Shown here piece after piece: positions 13,053 through 56,592 of a stretch of 64,000 nt of DNA. Numbering within the stretch: the first letter of the stretch is position 1; each line of letters starts with the position of its first letter. The translations under genes were made by a program, and so were the position numbers. The notes below the pieces were generated by a model. The model ran no database searches, was not told the DNA's origin, and saw only the letters and a list, made by a program, of their open reading frames with translations. Source of the stretch: Zygnema cylindricum (lineage: Eukaryota; Streptophyta; Zygnematophyceae; Zygnematales; Zygnemataceae); assembly GCA_037447655.1 (NCBI GenBank), contig JBBHKE010002684.1:233827-297826 (forward strand), in the 5' to 3' direction.

Positions 13053-13059
13053 TATCCCA

Positions 13060-15315: not shown

Positions 15316-15324
15316 AGTCTCTTC

Positions 15325-16233: not shown

Positions 16234-16986
16234 GATACACTCTCAGAAGCTATCAAAAATCCTACCAAACAGCTGTTCTTAAGTGCTTACCAATTCTTAT
16301 ACAAGCATCCAAACCTCACAAAACTCTTTCAGAATATAGAGTAGCATAAACACTGATAACTCCCAAAGTTATAGCACAATTGACGCAACAACACTCAAGA
16401 TATAATACTCAGAAGTTTCCCAAAAATTGTTTGCAGTTTTACTACTTGGAAGTCTGGATACATCATTTGTTCTGAGTCCTAAGTCTTATACTAGTGTTGT
16501 ACCGGCAATACCAATGTACCTGAGAGGTACGTCAAGCTGCCAAGCTAATACTAAGCTACCACTGAGCTACCACTAAGCTACCACTGAGCTACCACTAAGC
16601 TACCATTGAGCTACCACTGAGCTACCCACTAAGTTACCACTGAGTTCCCACTAAGTTGACTAGAATCGTATCTATCGCAGTTGCTCTATCCTGTACAGAA
16701 TCATATTAAGGATATCAGACGTTGCGTTGTCCGTACGGACCATATCAAATATAATCCTGGTTGCCTTGTCCAGTCTGTGTTGCAGCTTCGCTGCTACACT
16801 GCTCTGCTGCTGCGTTGCTCTGCTGTATAGCTGCTGCTATGCTGTATAGCAGTTGCTCTGCTATATAGCAGCTGCGCTGCTCTGTTGTATAGGAGCTGCG
16901 CTGCTCTGTCTGTATAGCAGCTGCGCTGCTTTGTCTGAAAAGCAGCTGCGCTGCTCTGAGGCTGAAAGCTTTCCAAAAAGACAACA
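16175..16986 (-). mobile_element. Copia A 5' LTR
   Basis: The minus-strand start is TGTTGTCTTTTTGG at 16986 and the end ACAACA at 16175. It keeps the gag ATG. Clear units of the GCAGCTGCGCTGCTCTG minisatellite lie at 16790-16960. Confidence 0.9.
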
Positions 16987-17132
16987 GAATCTTGTAATCC
17001 ACCCTTGAGTAATAAAGCGCAATCTTGTCTGTCATTGTTGTGTGTGCCTGCTGTTGTTACGGGAAGATCCTTGGAGCTTTCCGCTTTGCATTGTGGTGTA
17101 TTGTGGTACTTATATTGGTTGTCACTTTTACA
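16987..17132 (+). mobile_element. Gypsy 5' LTR, second part
   Basis: It resumes exactly as in 38876-39015 (GAATCTTGTAATCCACCC...) after the copia A insertion and ends CTTTTACA. Confidence 0.9.
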
Positions 17133-17147
17133 CTGGTATCGCGGCTA
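17133..17147 (+). promoter_or_regulatory. Gypsy primer-binding site
   Basis: CTGGTATCGCGGCT begins one base after the LTR end. The leading TGG pairs with the universal CCA 3' end of a tRNA, so this element primes in the ordinary 3'-end mode, unlike the copia elements here. I cannot assign the donor tRNA. Confidence 0.65.
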
Positions 17148-17166
17148 TTTCTCCTGACTCGAGAGC

Positions 17167-18187
17167 ATGGACGAACACGGCGTGTCCACTATGGAAATGT
17201 TAGCGAAAGTTCTCAAGGAGTTAGAAAACATTAGATTACAGAATGCGCAGCTGAGCAACACCGTCGTAACTTTGGAATCTCGTCTTGGTGAGCGACCTCA
17301 TGGAGGCATGGAGAGGGACTACAAGACACCAAAACTAAGACTTCCCGACGAGTTCGACCCTGCAAGACAGAAGAACTTGGACACGTGGCTATTCTGCGTT
17401 GCGAATTATCTCGAGAATTTTCCTAGCCTATCGAACCGTGAGAAGATTCACTACGCGGGTGGTCTTCTTAAAGGGGGAGTGGTGGCAATGGTGGAGGACA
17501 TTGGTGGAGAATGATGAGATAGCGACCGTTTGGGCTCTCTTCGTTCAATTTCTCCGTTACGCATGGCAGCCTGTTAATACGGTTAAGGCTCCACGAGATA
17601 AGATCGCAGTGCTGAAGCAACAAACTTCGGTGTTGGAGTTTACACAAAGATTTTTGGAGTGTAAGGTTCAAATACCTACGATGACGGAGGATGAAGTTGT
17701 GGATCGCTACGTGAAGGGGCTTAAATCATCCATTCGCAGGGATGTGGAACAATGGCTCGCTCGGGAAAGCACAACTCCTAGTCTCTCAGCAATCATGCAG
17801 TTTTCTGAGCGGACTGATTCAATCGGCTTCACCTTCCGACGACCTTATCATTATAGGTTAAGTAGCGGTGGAGGGGGTCGTCGAGACAATGGTCCAACTC
17901 CCATGGAGCTCGAAGCAATTGATGAGGACAAGCAGGTGGTCAATGTGTTGCGGAAAAAGAAGAAAACTATCAAGACCAAGGCCAACAACTTGTCCCCCGA
18001 GGGGCTCCATTATAGGAGGCAAAATGGCTTATGCTTCCAGCGCGGTACCCCGAACCATATGGCCCGAGAATGTCCAAAACGGAAAAATTCTGGAAAGGGG
18101 AAACTTAACGTCATCAGGTTAGCCGGTGAAAGAGGAGACCCTTTGATATTTCCAGGTCGAATCGGAGTGTGCACCACTAGCTTCATG
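17167..18187 (+). pseudogene. Gypsy Gag
   Basis: The ATG at 17167 opens a coiled-coil-like start (MLAKVLKELENIRLQNAQL), then TPKLRLPDEFDPARQKNLDTW, the start of a Ty3-type capsid. A frameshift near 17500 moves the frame into VQFLRYAWQPVN, VLEFTQRFLECK and EDEVVDRYVKGLK, which are typical retrotransposon Gag helices. The knuckle CFQRGTPNHMAREC has its second Cys changed to Arg. It is non-functional owing to the frameshift and the altered knuckle. Confidence 0.85.
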
Positions 18188-18668: not shown

Positions 18669-19685
18669 ATTTAAATCATAGATTTCTATAGTATTTTTTA
18701 GGTTTAAATATGTTAGGAAAAAGAAAAAGGACAGACAGCCTACCTCCACCTCCTTTCTCTAGCCCCCATACTTGTTGTAGTCACTGAAAGATAGAGAAGG
18801 TGGTTGATCCATGGCTGCCTTAGTTCAACAGGCAGTTATTTTTAGAAGGTTACTAAAAATAGTCTTGACGGACCCATGATTTAAACCCATAACTTGCGGT
18901 TTCGTCAAGTTGGCCGATAGCCGTCTGCTTTATCCTACTAGACTAGGACCAATGCTAAGTGCTATAGAGTATGATAGATATTTATACATTTCGGAAGTAA
19001 GAAATACATTTAACTAAAACTAGATACGGCATCCATAGATTCAGTTTTAGTACGACATCATTTCAAAATGAATACCTCGCATTTGGTTGACAGCGAAACA
19101 AATATCTCGCAAGTAATTATAACGGTTAAGATTACGTCTCATTACGAATCCGACGCCGCACGTCATCGTCGAAATCCCGGTGTGGTCACCTTGGTGTTTT
19201 GTGACGTGGCATGACCTGGAGCCACGTGGAGAGATGACATTCGGTCACAGGAATTCCGAGGAATGTACGGACAAATAAAAAGCCGACACGCATCCACTTA
19301 ATAGCATTGTCGTACATAGGCCGTACAAAAGGTACACTGACAGTAGTACTTTTTGGTACGGTATAGTAATTTGATTGGTCCTTACTTCAATAGATAGAAG
19401 TTATTAAAAGGAATCAGGACGTAGAAAATTTTGGTAGGTAGTCACCCCTCCCTTTGAGAGTTTGTACAAAGTGGCATTTTTGGTGCCTCATAACTTATTG
19501 GCTAGTTGGCTGTTTTCAGTGATTCTTTTTGCTACGGACTTAGGGGAGTCCAGGCTGCATAGGGGTGCAGTCAGATTTTCAGTTTGCCTTCTTGGGCAGG
19601 AGTGGTTGTGGCTTAAAGTGGGTTAGTTAAATACTATTTAGAGGCTTCTTGTATTCTGTAGTCCAATGGAGGACACAAAATTGCA
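18669..19685 (+). mobile_element. Copia B1 5' LTR
   Basis: The degenerate start TATTTAAATCATAG stands where other copies have TGTTGAAATTCATAG. The end ATTGCA is immediately followed by the primer-binding site. It carries GCCACGTGG (near 19220), a GTAC cluster (19260-19370) and the inverted CCAAT motif GATTGGTCC. Confidence 0.85.
18717..18955 (-). other. Antisense tRNA-like plus hairpin module in B1 5' LTR
   Basis: The hairpin arms CCACCTCCTTTCTCTA and TAGAGAAGGTGG flank the conserved loop. The minus-strand T-run comes from AAAAAGAAAAA at 18719-18727. The T-arm has decayed here (the stem no longer pairs), unlike in the other B copies. Confidence 0.5.
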
Positions 19686-21502: not shown

Positions 21503-22560
21503 TGAAACTTTGAGACCTCCATAAGTCCTTAGAGTGGACTGCTTCCAAAAAGCCTCTAGGATAACCCTGACCCCTTTGTGTTTCAGCAAAAATAACAGCC
21601 ACCCTGGCAGACAAAAACACTGACCAACTTCACCCCTCTGAAGAAAAGACTCCCCTGAGTCGATAGCAAAAAGAATCTCTGAACTTGCTCCCCTGAGCAG
21701 TAAGTTATGGAGGGTCAAAGTTGACCTTTTGTACAGAAGCTCTCTAGGAGAGAGGGTCCTATCTTCTAATTTTTCTAAGTCCTATCTCTCTCACAGACTC
21801 TATCTACTGATGTACGGAGCCAATCACATTTCAGTTTCGTACATAAAAGTACAGTTGCTGGTGTACTTTATGTACGGCCATTGTACGACCTGGCCTAGAT
21901 GTCGAAACGTGGTATGTCCGGATTCGCTCCCTTAATCCTCGGAGTGCCGCAATTCAATGTCATTCCGCCACGTGTCATCCGATGTGGCGATGACCACAAA
22001 CCGCCGAAATCCTCTTACGCGATCTCGACGTTAATTTTGGCCGTCCGATTAAATTCACATTTAATCGTAGCCGTAATAAATACATGCGCAGTATTCGTTT
22101 CACTAAAGAATTAAATGCGCGGTATTGGTTTCTTATCCGTACCGGAATCTGTACTTTTACATTTACTGGATATATGTCTCCCGTAATCAGTAACAGTTAA
22201 ATGAACTATCTTACGTATAAATGTTTAAGTAATTATCAAACCATATAGTACATAACATTACTCCTAGACTTCCTGGCTAAGGCTACCGGCTACTGGCTGT
22301 CTGCACGTCGGCAGGTACCAGGATCAAATCCTGTCGCCGGTACATATCTTTTAGTAAATTAAACCCCTAACTAAAATATATTTTCCCGTAAACCTCTGGA
22401 TAGCCTAGGTAGCCATGGCTTTAGCTCCTTCTCCAATTTCTCAGTGACTGCGAAAAGTTTGAGAAGTTGGAGAGAGAAGTTAAAGATACACTGCCTCGGC
22501 TTCTTTCTTATTTCTATTCACACGTAGAAAATACTTTAAAAAAAACTATTAATTTCTACA
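21503..22560 (-). mobile_element. Copia C 3' LTR
   Basis: On the minus strand it runs from TGTAGAAATTAATAG (22560) to AGTTTCA (21503) and matches the plus-strand LTR at 26565-27612. It holds CCACGTGTCA near 21971, the inverted CCAAT plus CCGTACATCAGTAGATAG block and several GTAC tetramers. Confidence 0.88.
22262..22510 (+). other. Antisense tRNA-like plus hairpin module in C 3' LTR
   Basis: The T-arm reads CAGG ATCAAAT CCTG (22319-22333). The hairpin (22411-22495) pairs TTCTCCAA with TTGGAGAG around loop AGTGACTGCGAAAAGTTTG. Only a weak T-rich tract (TTCTTTCTTATTT) follows. Confidence 0.55.
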
Positions 22561-26564: not shown

Positions 26565-27612
26565 TGTAGTAATTAATGGTGTTTAAGTATTTTCTAGGTC
26601 TGAATAGAAATAAAGAAGCCGAGGCAGTCTACCTCGAACTTCTCTCTCCAACTCTCAAACTTGTCGCAGTCACTAAGAAATTGGAGAGAAAGCTAGAGCC
26701 ATGGGTACCTAGGCTATCCTCAGGTTTACGGGAAATTTATATTAGTCTAGGGATTAATTACTAAAAGATATGTGCCGGCGACAGGATTTGATCCTGGTAC
26801 CTGCCGGCCATCAGAGAGTAGATAGCCGGTAGCCTTAGCCGTTAAGTCTAGAAGTAGTGTTACGTAGTATATAGTATGATAATTATTTAAACATGTACAC
26901 ATAGGATAAATCATTTTACTATAACTATTAACGGGATACATAGATATGGTAGTGTAAAAGTACGAATTGCGGTACGGATAAGAAATCAATACCGCGCATT
27001 GATTTCGTAAGCGAAACAAATACCGCGCATGTATTTATTACAGCTACGATCAAATGCGAGTTTAATCGGACGGCCGGAATTAGCGCCGAGATCGCGGAAG
27101 GAGAATTCAGCGGTTTGTGGGCATCGCCACATCGGATGACACGTGGCGATGTAACATTGGAGCGCGGCATCTCCGAGGATTAAAGGAGCGAATCTGAATA
27201 TTCCACGTGTGGACATTTAGGCCATGTCGTACAATGTCCATATATAAAGTACACCGGCAGCTAAACTTTTGCTTACAGAACTGTAATCTGATTGGTTCCG
27301 TACATCAGTAGATAGAGTCTGTGAGAGAGATAGGACTTAAAAAAATTAGAAGATAGGACCCTCTCTCCCAGAAAGCTTCTGTACAAAAGGTCAACTTTGA
27401 CCCTCTATAACTTATTGCTCAGGGGAGCAAATTCAGAGATTCTTTTTGCTATCGGCTCAGGGGAGTCTTACCTTCACAGGGGTGAAGGTGGTCAGAGTTT
27501 TTGTCTGCCAGGGTGGCAGTTATTTTTGCTTAAAAACAAAGGGGTCAGGATTATCCTAGAGGCTTCTTGGAAGCTGTCCACTCTGAGGACTTATGGAGGT
27601 CTCAGAGTTTCA
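26565..27612 (+). mobile_element. Copia C' 5' LTR
   Basis: It starts TGTAGTAATTAATGG and ends GAGTTTCA. It contains ACACGTGGCGATG near 27140, the ATTGGTTCCGTACATCAGTA promoter-like block near 27290 and the direct transition into the primer-binding site. Confidence 0.9.
26600..26860 (-). other. Antisense tRNA-like plus hairpin module in C' LTR
   Basis: The T-arm on the minus strand is CAGG ATCAAAT CCTG (26780-26796). The hairpin pairs CTCTCTCCAA with TTGGAGAGA around loop AGTGACTGCGACAAGTTTG. There is no strong T-run on the minus strand (TTCTTTATTT). Confidence 0.55.
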
Positions 27613-29056
27613 GGTTATGGGCCCACCCTCTAGGGTACCAATCTTTAATGGAACTGGCTTCATATATTGGGAAAGTATGATGATAGGAGCTCTATGCGAA
27701 AAAAGGTTTTGGGGGATAGTGAGTGGACGATTCGGGCGTCCATCAAGTCTTGGAATTCCTCCAGGGTTTAAAGGAAGCAGATTCACCAGGAAAGAGGATT
27801 CATCTTCAACGGAGGAAACAAAGGAAGGAGAGGTGGTGGACAAAGGAAAGGAGAAGGAGGCGACCACACCAATAGCAACTGGTTTAGCATTCATGTCACC
27901 TATTCCGAGGAACGAGGAGAATGATACTGAAACCTGGGACTTCAACAATATGGCGGCAAAGCACTTCATTCTACGCCATCTCACTCAAGGACTTCCATGT
28001 CCTCATTTGCAAGTAGAGAGGGCATCCGATCTTTGGATGGCTCTCATAGAGATGTACCGAAGTGATACGATTCAGCAACAACAGTTGGCTGATCAGAAAT
28101 TTAAGGAGTATGTATACAAAGGGGGAAATATGTTGGATTTTTGCAATGAGCTTGCTACACTCTTCATGGAGCTAGTGAGTGCGGGAAAAGTTTTTAGTGA
28201 AAAAGAAAAGGTTAACTGTTTACTAATCAAGTTACCTAATGAGTTCGAGAACATAGTCAACTGTGCGCAGGACTTGCCGGACTCAAGGTGGATATGGAAC
28301 TCAGTGGTAGGGATGATTCTCGTTCAAGAGAATACGATTGAGATCCGAAGGGGAGGAAAGAGTGGCCAAGCCTTGGCAACAGCGACCGATTGGAGGAACA
28401 AGGATTCCCGGAAACCAGTTGGAAACTATGGGGGTAGGGAGCAGAAAAAACAGGCTGAAGAGTTCGAACCAACGGCTCCCAAAGGTTTATGTCATTTTTG
28501 TAAGAAACCGGGGCACTATATGGCAAAGTGCACTAAGCTAACCGAGCTTCGGTTAAAGGAGGGGCAGACCGATGGTACCCCGAGAGGAAAGAAAAAGGCC
28601 ATTGTCACACAGGTACTTGAGGCGGAATCCGAGGATGAGGACGATGAGCTCCTTTTGGATGAGGAGTTGGTGGCGAAAACTGAGGTTGAAATTCCACGAA
28701 GGCAGAAATGTGCTTATGGTGGATTGAAAGGTGAAGCAGGCTGGATTATAGATTCAGGTGCCTCCATGCACATGTGTAAGGATAGGCACCTGTTCACTAA
28801 GATAAGAAAGATTCCCACGGTAGAGATAGAGTACGGGGATGGGAGGATAGTCACCACTACTCTTGTAGGATCGGTAGATCTGAAAGTGTTAGTAGAAGGA
28901 AAGACATCCATATTAACATTCTCCGATGTATTGTTTATTCCGCAGCTGAACAAAAACCTTATCTCTACATCTGTATTAGATGATAAGGGTTTTTTCACTA
29001 GCACTAGGGAAGGAGTCTTTACTGCTAGTTTTGAGGAGGATGTCTATTTTATTGCT
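27593..29056 (+). CDS. Copia C' Gag-protease (open, truncated)
   Basis: This is the longest open frame in the window, about 488 codons before the junction. It starts in the LTR and reads FQVMGPPSRVPIFNG, an acidic/Lys insert, capsid helices (FILRHLTQGLPCPHL, LADQKFKEYVYKGGNMLDFCNELA), the intact knuckle CHFCKKPGHYMAKC and an intact protease active site WIIDSGASMHMC. LKVLVEGKTSILTFSDVLFIPQLNKNLIS follows. It is cut at residue ~488 by the join to LTR-C, and the last ~19 codons are LTR-derived. Gag and protease are in one frame without a stop, showing the ancestral organisation. Integrase and RT are lost, so the element is not autonomous. Confidence 0.88.
27613..27624 (+). promoter_or_regulatory. 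Copia C' primer-binding site (half-tRNA type)
   Basis: GGTTATGGGCCC is identical to that of B1 despite diverged LTRs. It is read in gag as V-M-G-P. Confidence 0.85.
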
Positions 29057-29301
29057 GTAGCAGGATCAAATCATGTCCCCGGTACATATCTTTTAGTAAA
29101 TTTAACCTCTAACTAAAATATATTTTCCCGTAAACCTCTGGATAGCCTAGGTAGCCATGGCTCTAGCCCTTCTCCAATTTCTCAGTGACTACGACAAGTT
29201 TGAGTAGTTGGAGAGAGAAGTTAGAGATAGACTGCCTCGGCTACTTTATTATTTCTATTCAGACCTAGAAAATAATTTTAAAAAAACCATTAATATCTAT
29301 A
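29057..29301 (-). mobile_element. Copia C 5' LTR fragment
   Basis: On the minus strand it has TATAGATATTAATGG at 29301 and runs to the T-arm of the module (29065), where it is cut by the deletion joining it to C'. Confidence 0.8.
29062..29260 (+). other. Antisense module remnant in C 5' LTR fragment
   Basis: CAGGATCAAATCATG (decayed T-arm) is followed by the hairpin with loop AGTGACTACGACAAGTTTG. The tRNA-like 5' half is deleted. Confidence 0.5.
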
Positions 29302-31001: not shown

Positions 31002-31724
31002 GTAATATGCTTGAGAAATTCCAGATGGAAAATGGTAACAGTTGTACCACTCCCATGGACTTGAAAAAAGTAAGTGATGGGAGTGTAGAAAGAGGAGTGA
31101 TGATCTTAGATAATCAAATGAGTCTAGAGGAGAGAGAGTTTATGAAGTCTATCCCTTATAGACAGGTCGTAGCAAATTTAATTTATTTTATGAACTGTAC
31201 CAGGCCGGACATAGCGGCAGCAGTTGGAGTACCCAGTAGGAGTCTTAATGATCCTAGGAAGAGAGACTGGGAGGCAGCCAAGAGAGTCATGAGATATCTC
31301 GTTGGAACCAGAGAATTATGGTTGCATTTGGGAGGGGAGCACACTGATATCACCACTTGGAGTGATGCTAGTTATAGGGATGCACCTATGAGAAGATGCA
31401 CTTCTGGATATGTTTTGTATATGGGGGAAGGTGCTTGCTGTTGGAGCAGTAAGAAACAAAGGTGGTTGCTTAGTCTACTATGGAGGTTGAGTATATGGCG
31501 TCTTGTTCTGCTGTAAAAGAACTAATGTGGGTGAAGTCATTGTTGCAAAAACTAGGATATATGAAGGAGGAAGTGCATGAGATATTTTGCGATAATCAAG
31601 GTACAATCGCAATTCCAGCCAATCGAAAACACCATTTCAAAGAAAAACATATGGATATAAGATTAAGCTTCATAAATGAAAAAGTTGAAAATAAAATTAA
31701 AATTAGACTAGAAAATAAGGGGAG
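30947..31724 (+). pseudogene. Copia B1 RNase H
   Basis: LTQKEAIGNMLEKFQMENGNSCTTPMDLK, NLIYFMNCTRPDIAAAVG, WSDASYRDAPMRRCTSGY, then a shift into EVEYMASCSAVKELMWVKSLLQKLGYM and IFCDNQGTIAIPAN. The usual C-terminal ADMMTKP tail is deleted, and the frame ends in the polypurine tract. Confidence 0.88.
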
Positions 31725-32742
31725 TGTTGAAATTCATAGATTTCTATAGTATTTTCTAGGTTTAAATATGTTAGGAAAAAGAAAAACGACAGACAGCCTG
31801 CCTCCACCTCCTTTCTCTAGCCCCCATACTTGTTGTAGTCACTAAAGGATAGAGAAGGTGGTTGATCTATGGCTGCCTTAGTTCAACAGGCAGTTATTTT
31901 TAGAAGGTTACTAAAAATAGTCTTGACGGACCCAGGATTTGAACCCGGAACCTGCGGTTCGTCAAGTAGGCCGATAGCGGTCAGCTTTATCCTGCTAGAC
32001 TAGGACCAATGCTAAGTGCTATAGAGTATGATAGATATTTATACATTTAGGAAGTAAGATATCCATTTAACTAAAACTAGATACGGCGTGCATAGATACA
32101 GTTTTAGTACGACATCATTTCAGAATGAATACCTCGCATTTGGTAGACAGCGAAACAAATATCTCGCAAGTAATTATAACGGTTAAGATTACGTCTCATT
32201 ACGAATCCGACGGCGCACGTCATCGCCAAAATCCCGAAGTGGTCACCTTGGCGTTTTGTGACGTGGCATGACCTGGAGCCACGTGGAGAGATGAAATTCG
32301 GTCATAGGAATTCCGAGGAATGTACGGACAAGTAAAAAGTAGACACGCGTCCACTTAATAGCCTTGTCGTACATAGGCCGTACAAAAGGTACACCGGCAG
32401 TAGTACTTTTTGATATGGTACTGTAATTTGATTGGTCCGTACTTCAGTAGATAGAAGTTATTAAAAGGAATCAGGACTTAGAAAATTTTGGTAGGTAGTC
32501 ACCTCTCCCTTTGAGAGTTTGTACAAATTGGCATTTTTGGTGCCTCATAACTTATCGGCTGGTTCGCCGTTTTCAGTGATTCTTTTTGCTACGGACTCAG
32601 GGGAGTCCACGCTGCCTAGGGGTGCAGTCAAATTGTCAGTTTGCCTTTTTGGGCAGCTGTGGTCGTGGCTTAAAGTGGGTTAGTTAAATACTATCTAGAG
32701 GCTTCCTGTATTCTGTAGTCCAATGGAGGACACAGAATTGCA
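31725..32742 (+). mobile_element. Copia B1 3' LTR
   Basis: It starts TGTTGAAATTCATAGATTTC and ends GAATTGCA, 1018 bp. The gag start codon context ATGGAGGACACAG lies near its end, so this LTR places an ATG just before the gypsy RT sequence at 32743. Confidence 0.92.
31772..32010 (-). other. Antisense tRNA-like plus hairpin module in B1 3' LTR
   Basis: The T-arm is CCGGG TTCAAAT CCTGG, where one pair is G-U compared with B2. The A-box-like segment is TAGTCTAGCAGGATAAAGC. The hairpin loop AGTGACTACAACAAGTATG is intact. The minus-strand T-run comes from AAAAAG near 31777. Confidence 0.6.
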
Positions 32743-33725
32743 CGACACCGTAAATACTTTCAAAGAGGCCCCGGAAGTCGTGACAAAACTTCTCGAGGAG
32801 TACGTAGATGTTTTTCCCACGAAGCTCCTCGAAGGCTTACCTCCGAAGCGCGAAGTAGACCACAAGATATAACTTGTTTTCGGAGCGGTACCCCTGGCTA
32901 ATTGGATGTACAAGATGAGTTACACTGAATTAGACAACCTCAAAAAGCAACTCGCGGAGTTGGTCGAAGCCGGAGCAATATAACCGAGCAATTCACCGTA
33001 TGGAGCCCCCGTTCTCTTCGTGAATAAAAAAGATGGAGGTTTTCGTATGTGTGTGGACTACCAAGTGCTAAAAAGTTAACGGTCAAGAATGCGTACCCTT
33101 TACCGAGAATAGATGAATTGTAGGATCGACTTTGAGGTGCTAAATATTTCTCGAAGATAGATCTGCGGAGCGGTTATCACCAGATTAGAATTGCCGAGGA
33201 GGATGTGGAAAAGACGGCGTTTAGAACTCGGTTTGGCCATTTCCAGTTTCGGGTAATGCCGTTCAGGTTAACCAATGCGCCAGTGACTTTTATGCATCTG
33301 ATGAACTCCATCTTTCGCCAATATCTCTATACGTTTGCAATCGTCTTTCTAGAAGACATCTTGGTGTATAGTCGAACGTTGGAGGATCACAGGAAGCACT
33401 TAGGAACGGTCTTACAAGTCTTTCGGGGAAATATGTTGTACGCAAAGAGGAGTAAATGTGACTTCTTGAAGGAGAAAATCGGTTTTGTGGGCCATGTGGT
33501 GAGCCGGGACGGAATCGCAGTGGATCCGAACAAAACGAGGGCAGTGAAGGAGTGGCCGTAGCTGGTGAACATTACGGAGTTACGGAGCTTTTGAGGATTA
33601 CGCTCCTACTATCGACGTTTTGTCGAAGGTTTTGCCAAGATCGTTACACCACTCACGGAATTACTTAAGATTGACGTACCTTACGAGTGGAAATCGGCGC
33701 AAGGGGTAGCTTTTAACACGTTAAA
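32743..33725 (+). pseudogene. Gypsy reverse transcriptase
   Basis: The frame opens with the pre-RT segment DTVNTFKEAPEVVTKLLEEY, then [70 protein letters not shown]. The catalytic box is FLEDIL in place of the Y/F-L-D-D-I-L consensus, so the first Asp is Glu. Several stops (32872, 32983, 33076) and frameshifts (33120-33180) are present. RRFVEGFAKIVTPLTELLK closes the thumb. Confidence 0.9.
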
Positions 33726-33732
33726 GGAGCGG

Positions 33733-34389
33733 TTGGTTACCGCCCCTGTGTTAGCTGTTCCCGACCCGGACTTACCTTGGACGATAATTACAGACGCCAA
33801 CGATATGGCTATTGGAGCGATCTTTATGCAGGATCAAGAAAAAGGCCTACAACCCATTGCCTACGACAGTCGAAAATTAAAGGCAGCGGAGCTTAACTTG
33901 GTCACCCATGAAAAGGAGACAATTGCGACCATGAACGCGCTGGAAGTTTGGAAATGTTACGTTCAGGGGAAGCGGATCACAATTATCACGGATCACCACG
34001 CCCTGCAGTACCTACAAACACAGCCGAAGTTGCCAAAGAAACAAGTGCGATGGATGACGTTTCTGCAAACCTTCGCGCCGGAACTTGCCATTGAATATAA
34101 GCCGGGCAAGACGAATCCGGCAGATGCGCTGTCGAGAAGACTCGGAGTCGCTGCTCCAGTGGTAGAGCAACAATCGCAAACATCGCAGGATGTAGATGTG
34201 AGCTCTGTGAAAAAGAACACCGCAGCGTCGGACAAAGCGCAAGATCCGAAACTCGGCGCAGTCACTAGTACGGTCCAAGTGGACGAGCACTTGCTAAATA
34301 GAATCAAGGCCGCATACGACGATGACGAGTTATTAAAAGAACTGCTAAAACGGAAGGTATTAGTTCGGACCGCCAATGGTATCTGGTGA
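33733..34389 (+). pseudogene. Gypsy RNase H
   Basis: This open stretch of 218 codons contains the RNase H motifs TDANDMAIGAIFMQ (Asp), NLVTHEKETIATMNALEVWKCYVQG (Glu), ITDHHALQYL (Asp) and GKTNPADALSRR. It then enters the linker toward integrase (DEHLLNRIKAAYDDDELLKELL). The fold looks complete. It ends at a TGA before YRPSQATRLYVPTNQ. Confidence 0.88.
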
Positions 34390-35490
34390 TACAGACCAAG
34401 TCAAGCAACAAGACTTTACGTTCCGACAAACCAGGAGCTACGTCATTCGATATTGAAATTAAGTCATGATGAACCGCTTAGTGGACACTTCGGCCGGGAT
34501 AAAACAACCGCACGTGTCGCTGAGGCGTAATGTTGGCCAAACATGACTCGGGACATTGCGGAGTATGTCCAGACGTGTGACTCCTGTAACAGAAACAAAT
34601 CGGAATCGGGTCACCAAAGTCTGTTAGAACCTGTTCCGATACCATCTATTCCTTGGGAAGCGATTTCAATGGACTTCATCGTGGCTCTTTTGTTGACCAA
34701 GGAAGGTTATGACTCTATTTTCGTCGTCGTGGATTACCTGACAAAAATGTCTCATTTCTTACCCAAGACATCCACAGCAACAGCGGGAGATGTGGCAGAC
34801 TTATTCTTTCGGGAGATATTATGCCATCACGGACTCCCTAAGAGGATCGTCAACAACCGGGATCGGAAATTTGTAAGTCACTTTTGGATAGGTTTGTTTG
34901 AGCTGTGTGGAACGTAGTTGGCCATGTCCACAGCTTACCACCCTCAAACGGATGGTCAAACTGAAAGGGTGAATCGGACGTTGGAGGAGGCGTTGCGAGC
35001 TTATGTTTCAGTACATCAAACGGATTGGGTGAACCATCTAACAGCGATTGAGGTGGCGTACAACAGTGTGGTGCACTCGTCCACGAATGCTACGCCATTC
35101 TCCCTCAATGGACGACAACCCACCCTTCCACAAAACCTATTGGTCGCGGACTGCCCTACGGTGCCAGCTTTGGATTTTGCCGAAACGTTGTAAGGGAGCC
35201 TGGAAAAGGCAGCGAAGGCACTCCTACTGGCAAAGGATTGTCAAAAGGTGGAGGCCGACTCTCACCGGAAGGAAACCGTTTTCAGCTTGGGTGATAAGGT
35301 TCGCCGTAATATGGCAAACCTCTCCTTACCGGGTGCCCTCTCTAAGAAATCAGGACCGAAATTCACGCGCCCATTCACAATTTTGTCATGTGTGGGTGAG
35401 GTGGCTTATAAGTTGGATATTGCGAAGGAGTGGCATATCCACAATGTCTCCCCTGTTTCCCTGCTTAAACCGTTTCGAGAACCTGATTAG
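34390..35490 (+). pseudogene. Gypsy integrase
   Basis: The zinc-binding H2C2 region (LSHDEPLSGHFGRDKT, then CDSCNRNK) and catalytic core are recognisable: MDFIVALLLTKEGYDSIFVVVDYLTKM (Asp), NNRDRKFVS where the consensus is SDRDxxF, so the second catalytic Asp is Asn, and YHPQTDGQTERVNRTLEE (Glu). The SH3-like C-terminus FSLGDKVRRNMANLSL follows. In-frame stops occur at 34528, 34915, 35191 and 35488. Confidence 0.9.
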
Positions 35491-36157
35491 ATGTTTCACA
35501 ATCGACGGCAAACTACTCCTTTGCCCCCCGTTCACGGTACCTCAGACGAGTATGAGGAGGAGGGGATCCTTCATTCGCGCCGCTCTCGGAATTCCAACTC
35601 GAGCCAGTATCTGGTGCGTTGGAAGGGCTACGGAGCTGAGGAAGACTCTTGGGTGAACGAGGAGGATCTGCATTCTCTTGAGCTACTGCGCCGGTTTCAG
35701 AGGAGTGAGGACACTCAACTTCACCGGAGGGGAAATCGTAGTGGCCGCGGTAAAGGAACAAATCGCAGTGTCGCAACCATCGCAATTATATTAGGGACGC
35801 GACGAAGAAACGCAGCGACGCGGTTACCGCACTTCGGCGATACAGCGGCGCAGCCACCGCAGCGCAACATGGATTCGGTACCATCAGAGGAACGCAGCGC
35901 CACTGCTGCGCTTACAAGAAAGCGCAACAACGCAATTCTGTTTCACCACATTGGTGACAACGAACCCTCAGTTTCGACGCAGCAGCGCAGTTTCTTAAAT
36001 GTTGGACGTTGCGATACCCTCACACGCTGCGACGCTTCGCAGAGTCCAAACGTGAAACCCTCAACCGTCTTTGGTAAAGCCGCCATCCGCCCTCGTGACC
36101 AGCCTAGTCCATGCATTTTAGAGAGTGCTTCACTCTGCACAACCTGCTTACCTTCCC
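35491..36157 (+). pseudogene. Gypsy chromodomain and basic tail
   Basis: The chromodomain reads EEEGILHSRRSRNSNSSQYLV, then RWKGYGAEEDSWVNEEDL, with the aromatic and acidic positions characteristic of chromovirus integrase tails, which direct insertion to modified chromatin. Beyond it, an unusual Arg/Ala/Thr-rich tail (RSGRGKGTNRS, RRRNAATRLPHFGDTAA) runs to the solo LTR-E. GCAGCG-type motifs recur here at the DNA level, echoing the element's own LTR. Confidence 0.85.
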
Positions 36158-37150
36158 TGTTGAAATAAAAGGTATTTTCTAGGTTAGTTATAAGATTTAA
36201 ATAAGAGCAGGAAAAAGCAGAGGCAGCCTGCTTCTAGCTTCTCTCTCTAGCCCCCATACTTGTCGTAGTCACTGAAGGCTAGAGAGGAAGCTAGAGCCAT
36301 GGCTGCCTATGCTCCTTCTAGAATCAAAAGGCAGATCCTTGGTAAACTTACCAAAAGGATTAACGGACCCAAGATTTGATCCTGGTACCTACCATCTGTC
36401 AAAGTAGCCGTTAGTCTTACCTTGTAGTCTAAGACCAGTGCTGAAGTATATAGGGTACGATAGCTACTTAAAAATGACTAAAAAAAGAAGTTCGATTTAT
36501 TGACAAACGGACCACAATCACACAAACACAGTTAAAAATAGAATAACACCGGAAATGTACTACTTGTATTTTTAACGGCTATAAATTAAGGCCGACATTA
36601 ATCTAACGACAGAGAAAGAAGCCGGCATCGCGAAATGGCCGATTTGGCGGTTTTCGGTCACAACCACAACGGGTGACACGTGGTAGCATGATATTTGATA
36701 ATGGCATCTCCGGGACATATTATGGTGAACCCGGATATGGCAAGCGTCGTCTTTCTGGCCATATCATACAATGGCCGTACGGAAAGTACTTCCGACCAAG
36801 TACCTTTCTGTAATGTACACTCAATTGATTGGTTCCGTACATCAGTAGGAGAGGGTTTAGAGAGGGGTTTAGGACTTAGAAAATTAGAGGTAGCCGCCTC
36901 TCTCTCAGAGAGCTTTTGTATAAAAGGGTCATCTTTGACCATTGATAATTAACTGCTCACGGGAGCAAATTCAAAGATTCTTTTTGTGGCAAACTCAGGG
37001 GAGTCAGCCCTTCCAAGGGGTGCGGTCTAGCAAGTCTGTATTCTGTCATGGTGTCAGCAATATTTAGACAAAGCTTAAAGAACTGAGGTTATCCTAAAGG
37101 CTTCTAGCATGCTGCCTACTTTGAGTACCTATGGAGGTCTCAGAGTTGCA
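36158..37150 (+). mobile_element. Solo LTR-E
   Basis: This 993-bp LTR runs from TGTTGAAATAAAAGG to GAGTTGCA. It is flanked by a perfect 5-bp target duplication TTCCC (36153-36157 and 37151-37155). There is no internal region, so recombination between two LTRs removed it. It holds GACACGTGG near 36676 and the TTGATTGGTTCCGTACATCA block near 36823. Confidence 0.93.
36212..36443 (-). other. Antisense tRNA-like plus hairpin module in LTR-E (best example)
   Basis: The hairpin is nearly perfect. CTAGCTTCTCTCTCTAGCC (36234-36252) pairs with GGCTAGAGAGGAAGCTAG (36277-36294) with one bulged base, and the outer arms GGCAGCC (36222-36228) and GGCTGCC (36301-36307) also pair. The loop read antisense is AGTGACTACGACAAGTATG. 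The T-arm is CCAGG ATCAAAT CTTGG with one G-U pair. The antisense strand ends GCTTTTTCC, a possible Pol III terminator, at 36211-36218. Confidence 0.7.
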
Positions 37151-38476
37151 TTCCCTTCTTGAACTACCAGAATTATCCGACGCCACAACATCCATGGCAT
37201 CGTCGTCTTCTCCATTGCCAAAAAAAAAGGAGCCTAGTACGGGTAGGGCAAGGAGATGTACCCCGCTCGGATAGGTTGTTCGAGGCGGCAGAGGCCATGG
37301 TAGAGGCAAATAGGAGGAGGGAGGTAGAGGCAATTCTTGAACCTGAGGAGACAACTAGTAATGAGGTAGGGCAAGCGGAGACCAGTGGAGGAGAGGGGTC
37401 AGAAAATTCACAAGACCCCAAGTATAACCCAATCCAGGAAGGGGATCAGAAGGATGAGGAAGACCATGAGATTTCGGATGTTGAGGAGCTGGAACGGGAA
37501 CCGACACCCGCGCAAATTGAGGAGTTTGCCTCTGATCTGGAGGTGATGAGGGACCCTAATAAGGAGAGCAACGCGGACGAGCAGTCCTCGGAAAGCTCGG
37601 AGAAGAAGGCGGAAGCACAATACCCTAGCGGAGATGAGGTATTTCTCCTCGGAAATGAAAGAGGGGACACGGACGAGGAAAGTGAACAGGAGGAAGAAAT
37701 CCTAGATTATCTCTTTCCATCTCTCTATGGACACTCGGCATCCTGAGCCTACCTTCAGCTTCGCCAAGCGCCTGTATTGGGACCCTTCGGAGTGGCCTGC
37801 AACGTGGTGCACAAGAAAACCTGGGGACCCCATCTATATCCCCGCCGACGTGCCATCACACCCATCCTAGAATTTCATGAGGACGAAGGACCTGGGGGAC
37901 AACCATAAGGGTTTCGTACAATTAAACCCCCATGCCTTGCCGTTTGTGGATGTGGTTGAAGAACACTATCAGTACAGGGTGCACGTTCCCGAGTTACTCC
38001 GCTTTTACCACCCGTGGGATATCTGTCTGCATGACATCATCTCTCAAGCGGAGGTTACACCCGAGGTACGAGCACTCAAGCTGGCCCGGAAAAACGCTCT
38101 GCAACGGGCCCGAGCTGCCAGGAAACACGTTTCTGTTAAATTAAAGAAAGTACCGCGGTGGGATTCGGCAGAGGGGGGGGCAATAAGGGCACAGCAAGGT
38201 GAAGAACTCGAGGCCGCCGAAGCTTCGGCACCAGCGGAATTTGCACCGGCAACAATTCCGTTGCAACCCGAGGCACTAGCGGAGGTACCAGAAGAAGGTA
38301 AGGACCAAGTTCGGGAGCAAATAACTCGGAGATGCTTGACAGCGGCGGACCACCATATTGCGCTGTTGGAGACTTGTTGTGAGCAGCTCCAACATCAACT
38401 TGACACACTACGACAAGAATTCAAGGAGTACCGTGAGGAGATATACGGCATGCTCCGGAAATTACAAATTCCTTGA
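37151..38476 (+). pseudogene. Extra ORF (ORF3) of the chromovirus, unknown function
   Basis: Between pol and the 3' polypurine tract lies a sense-oriented coding region of about 430 codons in three frames. It starts MASSSSPLPKKKEPS (37190), shifts near 37260 into DRLFEAAEAMVEANRRREVEA and a strongly acidic stretch (EESEQEEEILDYLF) to 37743. It shifts again into RLYWDPSEWPATWCTRKPGD, FVDVVEEHYQYRVHVPELLR and WDICLHDIISQAEV, then a basic helix (RARAARKHVSVKLKKVPRW) and a C-terminal coiled coil (LETCCEQLQHQLDTLRQEF). No signal peptide or membrane span is visible, so it is not an envelope gene. It could be an accessory protein or a captured host gene. I do not recognise it. Confidence 0.6.
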
Positions 38477-39015: not shown

Positions 39016-39388
39016 TGGCCACTCTGGGATCTTGGCGATGATGTGTGCCGTTGGATAAAAACCACAATGTAATCTCAGCCGTCGAAACAAATGTCCGATT
39101 CATTTTTTCGTGCAGAATCATGTTCGCACCGTATTTTATTAATTTTATGTCCTTATATTCATATTTTCGTTAATCAGTTTAGCGGACGTAACACACTCGA
39201 AGTAGAAATCACACCCTATGTATTCTAGCGAACTTTTATGACAAATTGGTTAGAGGGGACGGCTACGCCACGCTCTGCCGGTCTGAGGTTCGAGTCTTGC
39301 CGGGCTCAACCTTTTTTTGAGAGTGACTTAAAGTCACTCTTTAGTCATGCCTTATGAAGCTGAGGCAGCCATGGCTCCACTCTGGCTC
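39016..39388 (-). mobile_element. B/H-type LTR, remainder after the gypsy insertion
   Basis: It continues the LTR broken at 10706 and aligns to 63235-63600. It is cut at 39388 within the hairpin of the module, where G-family gag sequence starts. Confidence 0.78.
39246..39388 (+). other. Truncated antisense module in B/H-type LTR
   Basis: The A-box-like TTGGTTAGAGGGG and B-box GGTTCGAGTCT (39287-39297) are the closest to tRNA consensus in the window. The hairpin's 5' arm GGCAGCCATGGCTCCA is present, but the loop and 3' arm are deleted. Confidence 0.5.
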
Positions 39389-39767
39389 CCAATATCAAAG
39401 TCTTGGATCCGTTCCTAGATGCATCTGTGGTGCAAGGAGAAGCTGACCTAGCTGCGGGTGCCGCCGCCCCTGTCATTGCCACATTCACCAATGACATGAA
39501 ATTGCAAGGAGAAGGATTAGCTTATGTGAATTTGTTGCAAGCCGCCCGGGCCACCTAGGCTGCCACCCAGATGGTGGCCAATCCCCCACCTTGCTCCACT
39601 CTTCTACACTTATGGAGACTTCTCTACACCTAGAGAATCGAGTCTGCCATCAAAGAATTCACAGACTTTAAATGCTTGAAAAACGAAACTCCACAAACTC
39701 TCTTCAACTGCCTTTCCAGCCTATGCCAAAAAACCAAACTCTCCACAATAAATTTCCTTGTCGTGGC
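39389..39767 (+). pseudogene. G-family Gag capsid fragment, second copy
   Basis: The plus strand encodes FTNDMKLQGEGLAYVNLLQAA, MVANPPPCSTLL, AIKEFTDFKCLKNETPQTLFN. This aligns residue by residue with the minus-strand gag at 3492-4013, with TAG stops at 39557 and 39632. It is interrupted at GTGGC by solo LTR-D and resumes at 40577. Confidence 0.85.
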
Positions 39768-42512: not shown

Positions 42513-43534
42513 TGTTGAAATTAATAGATTTTTAGAGTATTTTCTAGGTTTAAAATATTAGTATAAAAGAAAAAGAAAAAGGACAGACAACGTGCCTACA
42601 CCTCCTCTCTCTAGCCCCCATACTTGTTGTAGTCACTGAAAGATAGAGAGAGTGGCTGATCCATGGCTGCCTTAGTTCAACAGACATTTATTTTTAGTGC
42701 TACTAAAAATATACCTGACAGACCCAGGATTTGATCCTGGTACCTGCGGTTCGTCAAGCTGGCCGATAGTGGTCATCTTTATCCTACTAGACTAGGACCA
42801 ATGCTAAATGTTATAGTATGTGATAGATATATGTATATTTAGGATGGAGCAAATCCATTTAACTAAAACTGTGTACGGCGTACATGGATACAGTTTTATG
42901 AATGTACCATTTCAAAACGGATACCACGCATTTTGTTTCGACAACGAAACAAATATCGCGCTGTATTTATTACGGCCAAGATTGCGTCTCGCTTCAAATC
43001 AAACGGCGCACATCATCGCCGAAATCCGGGAGTAGTCACTTTGGCATTTAGTGACGTGGCATGACCTGGAGCCACGTGGAGAGATGACATTCGGTCATAG
43101 GAATTCCGAGGAATGTATGGACGAGTGAAAAGGAGACACGCCTCCGCTTAATAGTCCTGTCCTACATAGGTCGTACAAAAGGTACACCGACAGTAGTACT
43201 TTCTGGTAGGTACAGTAATATGATTGGTCCGTACTTCAGTAGATAGAAGTTATTAGAGGAAATCAAGACTTAGAAAATTTTGGTAGGCAGTCACCTCTCC
43301 CTTTGAGAGTTTGTACAAATTGGCATTTTTACTGCCTCATAACTTATCGCCTGGTTGGGCGTTTTCAGAGATTCTTTTTCCTACGGACTCAGGGAAGTCT
43401 AGGTTACATAGGGGTGAATTCAAATTGTCTGCAATAATGCCAGGACAGCAGTGGCTGTGGGTTAAAATGGGCTAGTTAACAACTATCTAAAGGCTTCCAG
43501 TATTTTGTAGTCCAATGGAGGACACAGAATTGCA
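42513..43534 (+). mobile_element. Solo LTR-B inside LTR-F
   Basis: This 1022-bp LTR runs from TGTTGAAATTAATAG to GAATTGCA. The flanks GTCCT (42508-42512) and GTCTT (43535-43539) differ at one base. The undisturbed LTR-F at 56330 reads through the site as AAAGTCCTCTTTCCC. Confidence 0.9.
42566..42803 (-). other. Antisense tRNA-like plus hairpin module in solo LTR-B
   Basis: The T-arm CCAGG ATCAAAT CCTGG is perfectly paired, with both strands of the stem changed relative to the CCGGG/CCCGG of B2. The hairpin loop AGTGACTACAACAAGTATG is present. The minus-strand T-runs come from AAAAAGGACAGAC near 42577. Confidence 0.65.
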
Positions 43535-45519: not shown

Positions 45520-45559
45520 TTGTTATCTTACTTACACAAACTGTTAGCGCTAACAAAAA
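45520..45559. other. 40-bp filler at the F/B2 junction
   Basis: TTGTTATCTTACTTACACAA and the following bases match neither the F nor the B element. They contain a short inverted repeat, GTTAGCGCTAAC. This could be junction filler from a repair event. Confidence 0.55.
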
Positions 45560-46566
45560 TGTTGATTTCTATAGTATTTTCTAGGTTTAAATATGTTAGG
45601 AAAAAAAAAAAGGATAGACAGCCTGCCTCCACCTCCTTTGTCTAGCCCCCATACTTGTTGTAGTCACTGAAGGATAGAGAAGGTGGTTGATCCATGGCTG
45701 CCTTAGTTCAACTGGCAGTTATTTTTAGTAGGTTACTAAAAATAGTCCTGACGGACCCGGGATTTGAACCCGGAACCTGCGGTCGTCAAGTTGGCCGATA
45801 GCGGTCAGCTTTATCCTACTAGACTAGGACCAATGCTAAGTGCTATAGAGTATGATAGATATATATACATTTAGGAAGTAAGAAATCCATTTAACTAAAA
45901 CTAGATAAGGCATCCATAGATTCAGTTGTAGTACGACATCATTTCATAATGAATACCTCGCATTTGTTTGACAGTGAAACAAATATCTCGAAAGTAATTA
46001 TAACGGTTAAGATTACGTCTCATTACGAATCCGACGGCGCACGTCATCGCCAAAATCCCGGAGTGGTCACCTTAGCGTTTTGTGACGTGGCATGACGTGG
46101 AGTCACGTGGAGAGATGACATTCGGTCATTTGAATTCCGAGGAATGTACGGACAAGTAAAAAGCAAACACGCGTCCACTTAATAGCCTTGTCGTACAAAG
46201 GCCGTACAAAAGGTACACCGGTAGTAGTACTTTTTGGTACGGTATAGTAAGTTGATTGGTCCTTACTTCAGTAGATAGAAGTTATTAGAAGGAATTAGGA
46301 CTTAGAAAATTTTGGTAGGTAGTTACCTCTCCTTTTGAGAGTTTGTACAAATTGGCATTTTTAGTGCCTCATAACTTATCGGCTAGTTGGCCGTTTTTAG
46401 TGATTCTTTTTGCTACGGACTCAAAGGAGTCTAAGCTGCACAGGGGTGCAATGAAATTGTCAGTTTACCTTCTTAAGCAGCAGTGGTCGTGGCTTAAAGT
46501 GGGTTAGTTAAATACTATCTAGAGGCTTCCTGTATTCTGTAGTCTAATGGAGGACATTGAATTTCA
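45560..46566 (+). mobile_element. Copia B2 5' LTR
   Basis: The start TGTTGATTTCTATAG lacks ~8 bases present in other B LTRs. It ends GAATTTCA before a decayed primer-binding site GGTTAACGGCCC (46567-46578). Confidence 0.9.
45600..45832 (-). other. Antisense tRNA-like plus hairpin module in B2 5' LTR
   Basis: The T-arm CCGGG TTCAAAT CCCGG pairs perfectly and contains a consensus-like B box GGTTCAAATCC. The A-box-like TAGTCTAGTAGGATAAAGC resembles a tRNA-Arg D-arm. The hairpin is intact, and a long minus-strand T-run comes from A10 near 45601. Confidence 0.68.
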
Positions 46567-50119: not shown

Positions 50120-50864
50120 AAGGAAGTGATGGGAGTGTAGAAGGAGGAGTGATAATCTTAGATGATCAGATGAGTCCAGAGGAGAGAGAGTTTATGAAGT
50201 CTATTCCTTAAAAACAAGTCGTAGGAAGTTTAATCTACTTTATGAGCTATACAAGGCCAGACATAGCCGCAGCAGTAGGAGTCTCGACGATCCTAAAAAG
50301 AGAAACTGGGAGGCACCCAAAAGAGTCATGAGATATCTGGTTGGAACCAGAGAATTATGATTGCATTTGGGAGGGGAGCACACTGATATCACCACTTGGA
50401 GTGATGCCAGTTATCGGGATGCACCTATGAGAAGATGAACATCTGGATATGTTTTGTATGTGGGGGAAAGAGCTTGCTGTTGGAGTAGTAAGCAACAAAA
50501 GGTGGTTGCTCTGTCTACTATGGAGGCTGAGTATATGGCGTCTTGTTCTCCTGTAAAAGAACTAATGTGGGTGAAGTCATTGTTGCAAGACCTGGGATAT
50601 ATGAAGGAGGGAGTGCATGAAATCTTTTGCGATAATCAAGCTGCAATCGCAATTGCAGCCAATCCAAAACACCATTTCAAAGCAAAACATAGGGACATAA
50701 GATTAAGCTTCATAAGAGAAAAAGTTGAAAATAAAATTTTAAATCTTGTGTATAGACCTGATGAAGAAATGGTGGCTGACATGATGACCAAACCTGTGCC
50801 CTCTCCTAAATTAAAATATTGTCGGGAGAAATGCGGGTTAAAAGAAAAAATAAAATTTGACTAG
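50120..50864 (+). pseudogene. Copia B2 RNase H
   Basis: The first half is broken (stops near 50209 and 50358, deletion near 50285). From 50454 an open stretch holds STMEAEYMASCSPVKELMWVKSLL, IFCDNQAAIAIAAN, KHHFKAKHRDIRLSFIREK and the complete copia C-terminus ADMMTKPVPSPKLKYCR. Confidence 0.88.
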
Positions 50865-50877
50865 AAAATAAGGGGAG

Positions 50878-51895
50878 TGTTGAAATTCATAGATTTCTAT
50901 TGTATTTTCTAGGTTTAAATATGTTAGGAAAAAGAAAAAGGACAGACAGCCTACCTCCACCTCCTTTCTCTAGCCCCCATACTTGTTGTAGTCACTAAAG
51001 GATAGAGAAGGTGGTTGATCCATGGCTGCCTTAATTCAACAGGTAGTTATTTTTAGTAGGTTACTAAAAATAGTCCTAACGGACCCGGGATTTCAACCCG
51101 GAACCTGCGGTTCGTCAAGTTGGCCGATAGCGGTCAGCTTTATCCTACTAGACTAGGACCAATGCTAAGTGCTATAGAGTATGATAGATATATATACATT
51201 TAGGAAGTAAAATATCCATTAAACTAAAACAAGATAAGGCGTGTATAGATATAGTTTTAGTACGACATCATTTCATAATGAATACCTCGCATTTGTTTGA
51301 CATCGAAACAAATATCTCGCAAGTAATTATAACGGTTAAGATTACGTCTCATTACGAATCCGACGGCGCACCTCATCGCCGAAATCCCGGAATGGTCGCC
51401 TTGGCGTTTTGTGATGTGGCATGACCTGGAGTCACGTGGAGGGATGACATTCGGTCATAGGAATTCCGAGGAATGTACGGACAAGTAAAAAGAAAACACG
51501 CGTCCACTTAATAGCCTTGTCGTACATAGGCCGTACAAAAGGTACACCGACAGTAGTACTTTTTGGTACGGTACAGTAATTTAATTGGTCCGTACTTCAG
51601 TAGATAGAAGTTATTAGAAGGAATCAGGACTTAGAAAATTTTGGTAGGTAGTCACCTCTCCCTTTGAGAGTTTGTACAAATTGGCATTTTTAGTGCCTCA
51701 TAACTTATTGGTCGGTTGGCCGTTTTCAGTGATTCTTTTTGCTACGGACTCACGGGAGTCTACGCTGCACATGAGCGCAGTCAAATTGTCAGTTTGCCTT
51801 CTTGGGCAGCAGTGTTCGTGGCTTAAAGTGGGTTAGTTAAATAGTATTTAGAGGCTTCCTGTATTCTTTAGTCTAATGGAGGACACAGAATTTCA
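50878..51895 (+). mobile_element. Copia B2 3' LTR
   Basis: It runs from TGTTGAAATTCATAGATTTC to GAATTTCA. Seven GTAC tetramers lie in 51510-51600, GTCACGTGGAGG near 51432, and the GTCCGTACTTCAGTAGATAG block at 51587. Confidence 0.92.
50932..51163 (-). other. Antisense tRNA-like plus hairpin module in B2 3' LTR
   Basis: The T-arm CCGGG TTGAAAT CCCGG has an intact stem with one loop change. The A-box-like TAGTCTAGTAGGATAAAGC and hairpin are intact. The minus-strand T-runs come from AAAAAGAAAAAGG at 50929-50941. Confidence 0.65.
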
Positions 51896-55482: not shown

Positions 55483-56592
55483 TGTTGAAAAAGGGTATTT
55501 TACAATCTATCTCTTTAGTTAGTCCATGGTTATTTTATTGTTCTCTTACTTGTCGTAGTCACTGAGAACTTGCAAGCAGCCATGGCAGCCTTTAGCAGAT
55601 GAGAAGACAGGTAGAAGATAAAGCTTCTGCAAAAGATATTTCTACCAGGAACAGGGATTGATCCTGTTACCTTCGAAATCAGCAGCTGTCCGCCATATCC
55701 GGTAGGTCTTGAAGAATCGATGCATATATTTGTTTGATATATATTTCACAGATGACGCTCTGACATAAATCATTTAACGACTAATGAAACGAAACAAACA
55801 TGGGAAGGAGAATACAGTACGAAATACTGTACCGCACGAAATGAATGAAACAATATTTAATCTCAATGGACTAAATTAAACGTCATTCCTCATCGACGGC
55901 TCGCAAAGGAGCTAGGATTTTCAACGGTCAACATGGGACGAAGACCGTTGAAATTCAAACGGTCAACACGTAAAAGAATTTCAACGGTCGACATTTTTTG
56001 GCACTTAGTCAGCATCGGAGGACCGATATTTATTTCCGAATCACAAACAGACGGCACGCGTAACTACCGGAATGCCAAAGAGAATATTTGACTGTACTTC
56101 GCGAATAAAGAGGAAAATGACACGTGGCATCATCATATAGGATGCCGAAGAAAAAAAGGACAGAATGACGATGACGTGTATGCCACGTGGCAGATCGAGA
56201 GTGGTGCCAAATATTTTCGTACACAAAGTACAACGGCTACCGTACTTTGTATGTACATAATTTAGCGTACAATCATTTTAATTGGTCTAGAGTAGTTAAG
56301 AGTAGGTTCTTAGGACTTAGACAATTTTTTTTAAAGTCCTCTTTCCCAGAGGCCATTTGCATTAATACGTTGTCTTTGAAAAGCCATAACTTAATACTCA
56401 GGTGAGCAAATGAAGTGATTGTTTTTTCTCCGGACACAAAGGATTTCACGCTACACAAAAGTGTAGTCGGTGTGAGTTTATGCGTGTCAAGGTGGCACCT
56501 ATTCATTGCCAAAATTAAAAGTGCAAATATAATCATAGAGGTTTCATATAAGCTAGACATTCTGTGTCCCAATGGAGGTCACATAATTACAA
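55483..56592 (+). mobile_element. Copia F 3' LTR
   Basis: It runs from TGTTGAAAAAGGGTATTTTA to ATAATTACA and is the uninterrupted counterpart of the split 5' LTR. It contains GACACGTGGCATC and GCCACGTGGCAG. Confidence 0.88.
55530..55715 (-). other. Antisense tRNA-like module in F 3' LTR
   Basis: The T-arm ACAGG ATCAATC CCTGT has a perfect stem. CTACCGG pairs with CCTGGTAG as an acceptor-like stem. The loop motif reads AGTGACTACGACAAGTAAG. Confidence 0.55.

Follow-up and report, generated by a model that had tools for sequence, protein, structure and literature searches.

The U3 region of a copia lineage in the window (the whole 64-kb stretch of DNA that was analysed) may carry a conserved RNA polymerase III (Pol III) type 2 promoter unit, placed antisense to the element and maintained under selection. 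We give this reading roughly even chances, considering the layout of the sequence, which recurs over LTR families that have diverged and, among the copies sampled, is confined to LTRs. In antisense order, the module shows a TATA-like octamer, a D-arm/A-box, a T-arm/B-box, a run of four to six T, a variable spacer, a CCATGG palindromic block, a hairpin and often a second T-run. The parts are listed below for a solo LTR, which is flanked by the 5-bp TSD TTCCC at 36153-36157 and 37151-37155 (one copy examined), with the basis of each in brackets.

36158-37150, + strand: solo copia LTR, TG..CA, 993 bp (sequence)
36919-36926, + strand: TATA box in the sense-strand (Pol II) promoter of the LTR itself (sequence)
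36465-36472, - strand: TATA-like TTTAAGTA, 41 nt ahead of the A-box (the same 41-nt spacing in 26/40 copies)
36413-36431, - strand: A-box, tRNA D-arm-like segment (motif scoring)
36369-36385, - strand: T-arm with B-box, the B-box at 36372-36382 (motif scoring)
36353-36356, - strand: T4 run directly past the tRNA-like part (spacer T4 or longer in 40/40 copies and 17/17 loop-picked loci)
36222-36307, listed on the - strand, strand of action not claimed: long hairpin with arms 36277-36307 and 36222-36252 (pairing, covariation)
36255-36274, - strand: conserved hairpin loop (loop pattern, conservation)
36212-36216, - strand: T5 run past the hairpin (a run of at least T4 within 40 nt in 33/40 copies, T5 in 23/40)

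Copies of the module in the window

The first-pass annotation had named fourteen LTRs or LTR fragments with such a module, always opposite to LTR sense, and both statements were borne out. Exactly these 14 places were matched by a module profile, although 13 of them match it by construction because the profile was made from those copies. The 14th (39200-39393) was kept out of the profile and was recovered at E 5e-20. Independently of the profile, the loop of one copy used as a pattern returned 12 places in the window at up to 3 mismatches, against 0.05 expected. The loop itself had been claimed for all fourteen places and is kept in 13, being more changed in the copy at 63405-63722, and it is absent from the copy at 39200-39393. 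The module is antisense in 14/14 copies, all of them in the U3 of copia LTRs or LTR fragments, where LTR sense was set by the gag and pol ORFs, the PPT-like tract adjoining 3' LTRs and the TATA box at 36919. The copia elements of the window are broken; pol ORFs precede the 3' LTRs with the PPT-like tract, and gag ORFs of the lineage are also present. The other copies, all found by the profile, are the following.

9977-10285, + strand: module copy; LTR on the - strand
18673-18984, - strand: module copy; LTR on the + strand
22226-22557, + strand: module copy; LTR on the - strand, PPT-like tract adjoining
26569-26889, - strand: module copy; LTR on the + strand
29020-29297, + strand: module copy with the A-box side cut off; LTR on the - strand
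31728-32041, - strand: module copy; 3' LTR, PPT-like tract adjoining
39200-39393, + strand: module copy in a truncated LTR, with tRNA part, T7 and palindrome, without loop
41649-41920, - strand: module copy, short-hairpin family
42516-42832, - strand: module copy
45557-45864, - strand: module copy; contains the only window match of ARAGORN -ps, tRNA-like, 45750-45833
50881-51193, - strand: module copy; 3' LTR, PPT-like tract adjoining
55487-55746, - strand: module copy, short-hairpin family
63405-63722, + strand: module copy; LTR on the - strand

The place near 39246 was also considered as a free-standing element and rejected, since it is a truncated LTR and the five relatives inspected (of 39 other matches) continue into the hairpin and the LTR edge. 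At the junction between internal region and LTR (window 31715-31790 and 50860-50930), an inverted repeat is formed by the PPT-like tract (CTAGAAAATAAGG) on one side and the start of the LTR (TATTTTCTAG) on the other.

Antisense boxes, T-runs and likeness to tRNA

The layout was scored in a first set of 40 copies. The TATA-like octamer stands 41 nt ahead of the A-box in 26 of them, and the distance from A-box to B-box is 46-58 nt in 37. The B-box scores at least 10/11 in 35 copies and the A-box at least 16/19 in 30; both boxes are high in 28/40 copies against 0/780 control stretches of the same LTRs, a generous control because the very copies being scored had supplied the A-box pattern. The A-box, which had been called a weaker A-box-like segment, is present and is better described as a recognisable D-arm. 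T-runs had been reported for most families, and this holds: every copy has a T4 or longer in the spacer, and its start, 7-12 nt past the T-arm in 39 copies, is almost invariant. Past the hairpin, a T4 or longer follows within 40 nt in 33 copies and a T5 in 23. The stretches L007 and L051, which are the window itself, were dropped, and L012 and L011_2738 lie outside the 38 references.

A second sample was picked by the loop and comprised 20 of the 100 exact loop matches listed, spread over the first contigs of the host assembly (353 Mb, 2,689 contigs); several of these loci come from families already in the first set. The tRNA-like part is present at 17/20. At the remaining three, the L079 stretch ends early, and the bases adjoining the loop are N in L067 and a gap of 10 N in L077; there is accordingly no clear case of an LTR lacking the module. 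These three loci were excluded from box scoring and hairpin pairing, which leaves 17. Among them, the B-box scores at least 10/11 in 17/17, the first T-run begins 12-17 nt past the B-box in 17/17, and the TATA-like octamer reaches at least 6/8 in 17/17 and 7/8 in 15/17, with the 41-nt spacing in 12. The A-box scores at least 15/19 in 13/17 and at least 16/19 in 7/17, and a T-run follows the hairpin in 10/17. Only the count of the first T-run is free of selection, since the B-box and the TATA-like octamer were taken as the best fit near the profile match and the T-run lies outside the profile. In both samples the copies are related, and the box and pairing counts are therefore not independent.

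The likeness to tRNA is partial. In a sister copy, positions 43-63 of the Rfam tRNA model RF00005 match the T-arm at 45757-45778 and score 14.4 bits, where the cut-off is 29 bits; RF00005 has no match in the copy at 36158. An Rfam scan of the window at the gathering threshold gave no tRNA and no 5S match, and default ARAGORN found nothing in the window. With the -ps option there is one match in the 64 kb, on the module, compared with 4 matches in 30 random sequences of equal length; two looser settings gave 94 and 334 window matches, which is noise. No acceptor stem was seen in the aligned module copies, and neither a full cloverleaf nor an RF00005 match over the cut-off, which would mark a tRNA gene, was found. 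When 13 host tRNA sequences were compared with 20 copies, the mean z was 2.5, a weak similarity that pointed to no common isotype; in 6/20 copies the opposite strand scored equal or higher, perhaps because the T-arm is self-complementary. Regarding termination, only 4/20 host tRNA genes have a T4 that starts no more than 6 nt past the end of the tRNA, and 6/20 have none within 60 nt (a sample of 20 of 63 scored matches, stretches L031-L050, with some near-identical genes). This may indicate that Pol III termination in this host differs from the textbook.

Concerning function, the antisense Pol III unit that had been proposed keeps its type 2 promoter layout, its T-runs and compensatory pairs in the hairpin, and what was not seen is the full tRNA cloverleaf. 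TFIIIC and TFIIIB would bind the A and B boxes, and a short antisense RNA would start near the A-box. A stop at the first T-run would give a transcript of about 90 nt, and one that ran on through the hairpin would reach about 230 nt; one long product is difficult because the T-run ahead of the hairpin might stop Pol III. As the most likely effect, antisense transcription, or the Pol III factors once bound, would modulate the Pol II promoter of the element, which lies about 490 bp away, or would mark chromatin. A further step, in which the module is an antisense Pol III gene kept across families and its read-through RNA with the hairpin controls how the element is transcribed by Pol II, reverse transcribed or integrated at a given site, is possible, if doubtful.

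The boxes could also act only as a platform for bound factors, recruiting TFIIIC so that the LTR is insulated or the integration of other copies is steered, with any transcript as a by-product. The recurrence of the boxes though the acceptor stem is lost, the thousands of copies in the genome and two L027 LTRs inserted within another module copy are consistent with this; however, targeting cannot be judged from two nested cases, and with the near-invariant T-run and the covarying hairpin left unexplained we consider this alternative unlikely. At extra-TFIIIC sites the B-box is bound without a tRNA product, and Ty1 antisense RNAs are a case of antisense RNA control of a copia-type element; the parallel of both with the module is one of description.

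Structure and strand of the hairpin

The hairpin alignment comprised 33 sequences (32 distinct) and 29 pairs, with five short-hairpin families left out. In this alignment, 94.3% of the cells are paired, against at most 52.8% when the arms are slid. Cells changed on both sides number 53 compared with 23.3 in shuffled alignments (0/500 shuffles reach this value), and pairs changed on both sides number 11 compared with 7.5 (11/500); pair types, 35 compared with 32.7 (68/500), are not above the shuffles. Furthermore, 17 held-out copies contribute 46 further compensatory cells. Kinship among the sequences inflates these covariation counts. Judged from the aligned copies, the hairpin is under structural constraint, as compensatory changes exceed the shuffled and slid controls, and the stems are thus conserved beyond chance, a point on which the first-pass annotation had staked its reading. 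In one family (L025:7512-7737), the palindrome GGCAGCCATGGCTGCC has been swapped for another perfect palindrome, GGCAACTATAGTTGCC.

The strand on which the hairpin acts is a different matter, since fold prediction gives a stable structure on both strands. In the first set, the antisense fold is lower in 33/39 copies and in 8/8 clusters. G-U pairs also favour the antisense strand, with 138 against 25 on 30 antisense-derived pairs, 86 against 24 on mostly Watson-Crick pairs, and 16 against 5 at cluster level, where the count is small; base composition accounts for part of this preference. On the 8 pairs common to the predicted structures of both strands, the sense strand has more G-U pairs (11 against 6). 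In the held-out set of 17 copies, the antisense fold is lower in 12/17, and the G-U counts of 27 antisense and 23 sense (p 0.67) do not repeat the preference; for this reason, no strand is claimed for the hairpin. Mutation bias as the cause of the G-U preference was rejected, given that G>A (156) and C>T (112) changes outside the hairpin are near equal per site. A short antisense ORF through the loop was dropped as well, its frames differing among families in a by-eye reading.

These strand results bear on another explanation, according to which the hairpin acts in the sense genomic RNA (with U3 at its 3' end), in single-stranded cDNA or as a cruciform during replication, while the tRNA-like part is separate or a fossil. 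Stability on both strands, the held-out G-U counts and the lead of the sense strand on the shared pairs would be expected from it. The first set favours antisense in G-U pairs and in folds, even if composition explains part of this, and the tRNA part and the hairpin co-occur in nearly all sampled copies, which argues against separate functions and makes this explanation improbable.

Conservation, distribution and known elements

The LTRs of divergent families align along their full length, so that the module forms a single conserved block within an LTR common to them. Between families, conservation is above the LTR average in the loop, the hairpin, the LTR edge, the T-arm and A-box blocks and parts of the promoter and R region, and below it in the spacer; homology extends beyond both ends of the module. 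Among young copies of three families, variation is 0.020 in the loop and 0.036 in the A-box stretch compared with 0.063 in the rest of the LTR, and the hairpin arm (0.039) is a little below the rest. No significant difference from the rest is seen in the B-box (0.063), TATA (0.050) or T4 (0.068) stretch. An A-box constraint in younger copies, on which the antisense unit had been made to depend, is therefore seen in the A-box, whereas the B-box varies as much as the LTR.

In the host assembly, the loop has 8,732 matches at up to one mismatch, against 21 for the reversed pattern, and 3,403 exact matches against 5. The LTR edge motif past the loop is clear in 19/20 loop-picked loci and present in a weaker form in one, and no free-standing loop copy was found among these 20. 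In 248 kb of sequence, the 49 tRNA-part and 50 hairpin matches are all in modules, save one reverse-strand echo of a module hairpin, and three further 10-kb stretches added one module in which both parts are present. LTR similarity guided the choice of part of the 248 kb, but not of L015-L030 (16 stretches, about 145 kb) or of the window. No free-standing tRNA part or hairpin was found in the 248 kb and 30 kb, with profiles sensitive to close relatives only. Whether matches occur only in LTRs had been posed as a question, and within this sequence and the 20 loci they do. Since both parts sit in modules and the LTR edge adjoins the loop, the unit appears as a feature of the LTR. On the sequence sampled, a free-standing SINE was consequently rejected, and the suggestion of a SINE-like embedded unit finds no support here. 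In IMG/VR, the loop pattern had no match, and two copia protein queries gave 2 and 30 stretches with the pattern, none of them confirmed.

Several observations were made along with these searches. Two LTRs are inserted inside the module of another LTR (L027:3193-3633 and L027:4756-5177), which could reflect an integration preference. In L077, the 10-N scaffold gap adjoins the hairpin loop, and the palindromic module may break assemblies. Copia reverse transcriptase fragments occur in contigs filed as bacteria or archaea (L001-L006), probably as eukaryotic contamination. The host is probably a streptophyte: EF1A in L061 looks plant-like, and for one copia reverse transcriptase the named relatives nearest the top come from Closterium (31-37% identity), behind other matches that reach 45%. 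A PDB comparison added nothing to this, and a search for host genes had no match.

The module shares with tRNA-derived SINEs an A-box, a B-box, a structured body and T-runs, but SINEs have free-standing copies with their own TSD and the module has none in the sample. It is very unlikely that the module is simply a fossil of an ancient tRNA-derived SINE or tRNA gene in the ancestral LTR, retained because LTRs are copied whole: the order of tRNA head, body and T-rich tail, the B-box no more conserved than the LTR in young copies and the SINE insertion proposed as the origin of Cassandra, Ajax and Helenus (PMC10886601) agree with it, while the compensatory hairpin changes, box blocks exceeding the LTR mean between families, the lack of a free-standing relative in the sampled sequence and the homology continuing past both module ends do not.

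Returning to the antisense promoter unit, its nearest known counterparts are Helenus (TRIMp3), Ajax and Cassandra, short non-coding elements whose LTRs hold a Pol III promoter derived from tRNA or 5S rRNA (Kojima 2024, PMC10886601). Helenus elements are non-coding TRIMs of 311-1263 bp, and the proposed role of their promoter is to produce the template RNA of the element itself; they show a 5-bp TSD in fungi and plants and are mobilised by copia in fungi (PMC10886601). The module LTRs resemble them in the A- and B-box tRNA-like sequence inside the LTR and in the 5-bp TSD, matched by TTCCC at the one solo LTR. On the other hand, the LTR here measures 993 bp by itself, has a sense TATA box and comes from a copia lineage with gag and pol, not from a short non-coding TRIM, and the unit is antisense, unlike a promoter for template RNA (the orientation in Helenus being deduced from its proposed role). 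Cassandra and Ajax likewise have a Pol III promoter within the LTRs, but they are 5S rRNA-derived TRIMs and no Rfam 5S match exists in the window. The same source notes a likeness to part of a tRNA in not a few LTRs of Repbase, with its analysis restricted to TRIMs, and argues that autonomous partners need Pol II (PMC10886601). As far as those statements go, the module LTRs are of the kind left aside by Kojima 2024, carrying the unit backwards.

The claim that this arrangement had no known description thus has to be narrowed: Helenus, Ajax and Cassandra already have LTRs with a Pol III promoter (PMC10886601), and what stands is the antisense arrangement in gag-pol copia LTRs. No earlier description of it appeared in a literature search covering abstracts and passages of PMC2774510, with most subscription journals outside its coverage. 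Because the known LTR promoters for Pol III are thought to make template RNA, an antisense unit in gag-pol copia LTRs would need another role, which could be self-regulation, chromatin marking or the steering of integration. If the reading is right, two polymerases read the same LTR in opposite directions, and one genome holds thousands of tRNA-type promoters that could compete with the real tRNA genes.

The window also holds other elements. A Gypsy-type element at 33595-36100 carries RNase H domains and an end that we take to be chromodomain-like. Moreover, another copia family lies at 8910-17340, with gag at 15328-16242 and 11-bp and 25-bp tandem repeats adjoining, and a 374-bp stretch there is an 84% match to the LTR of the copy at 10285 or to its flank.
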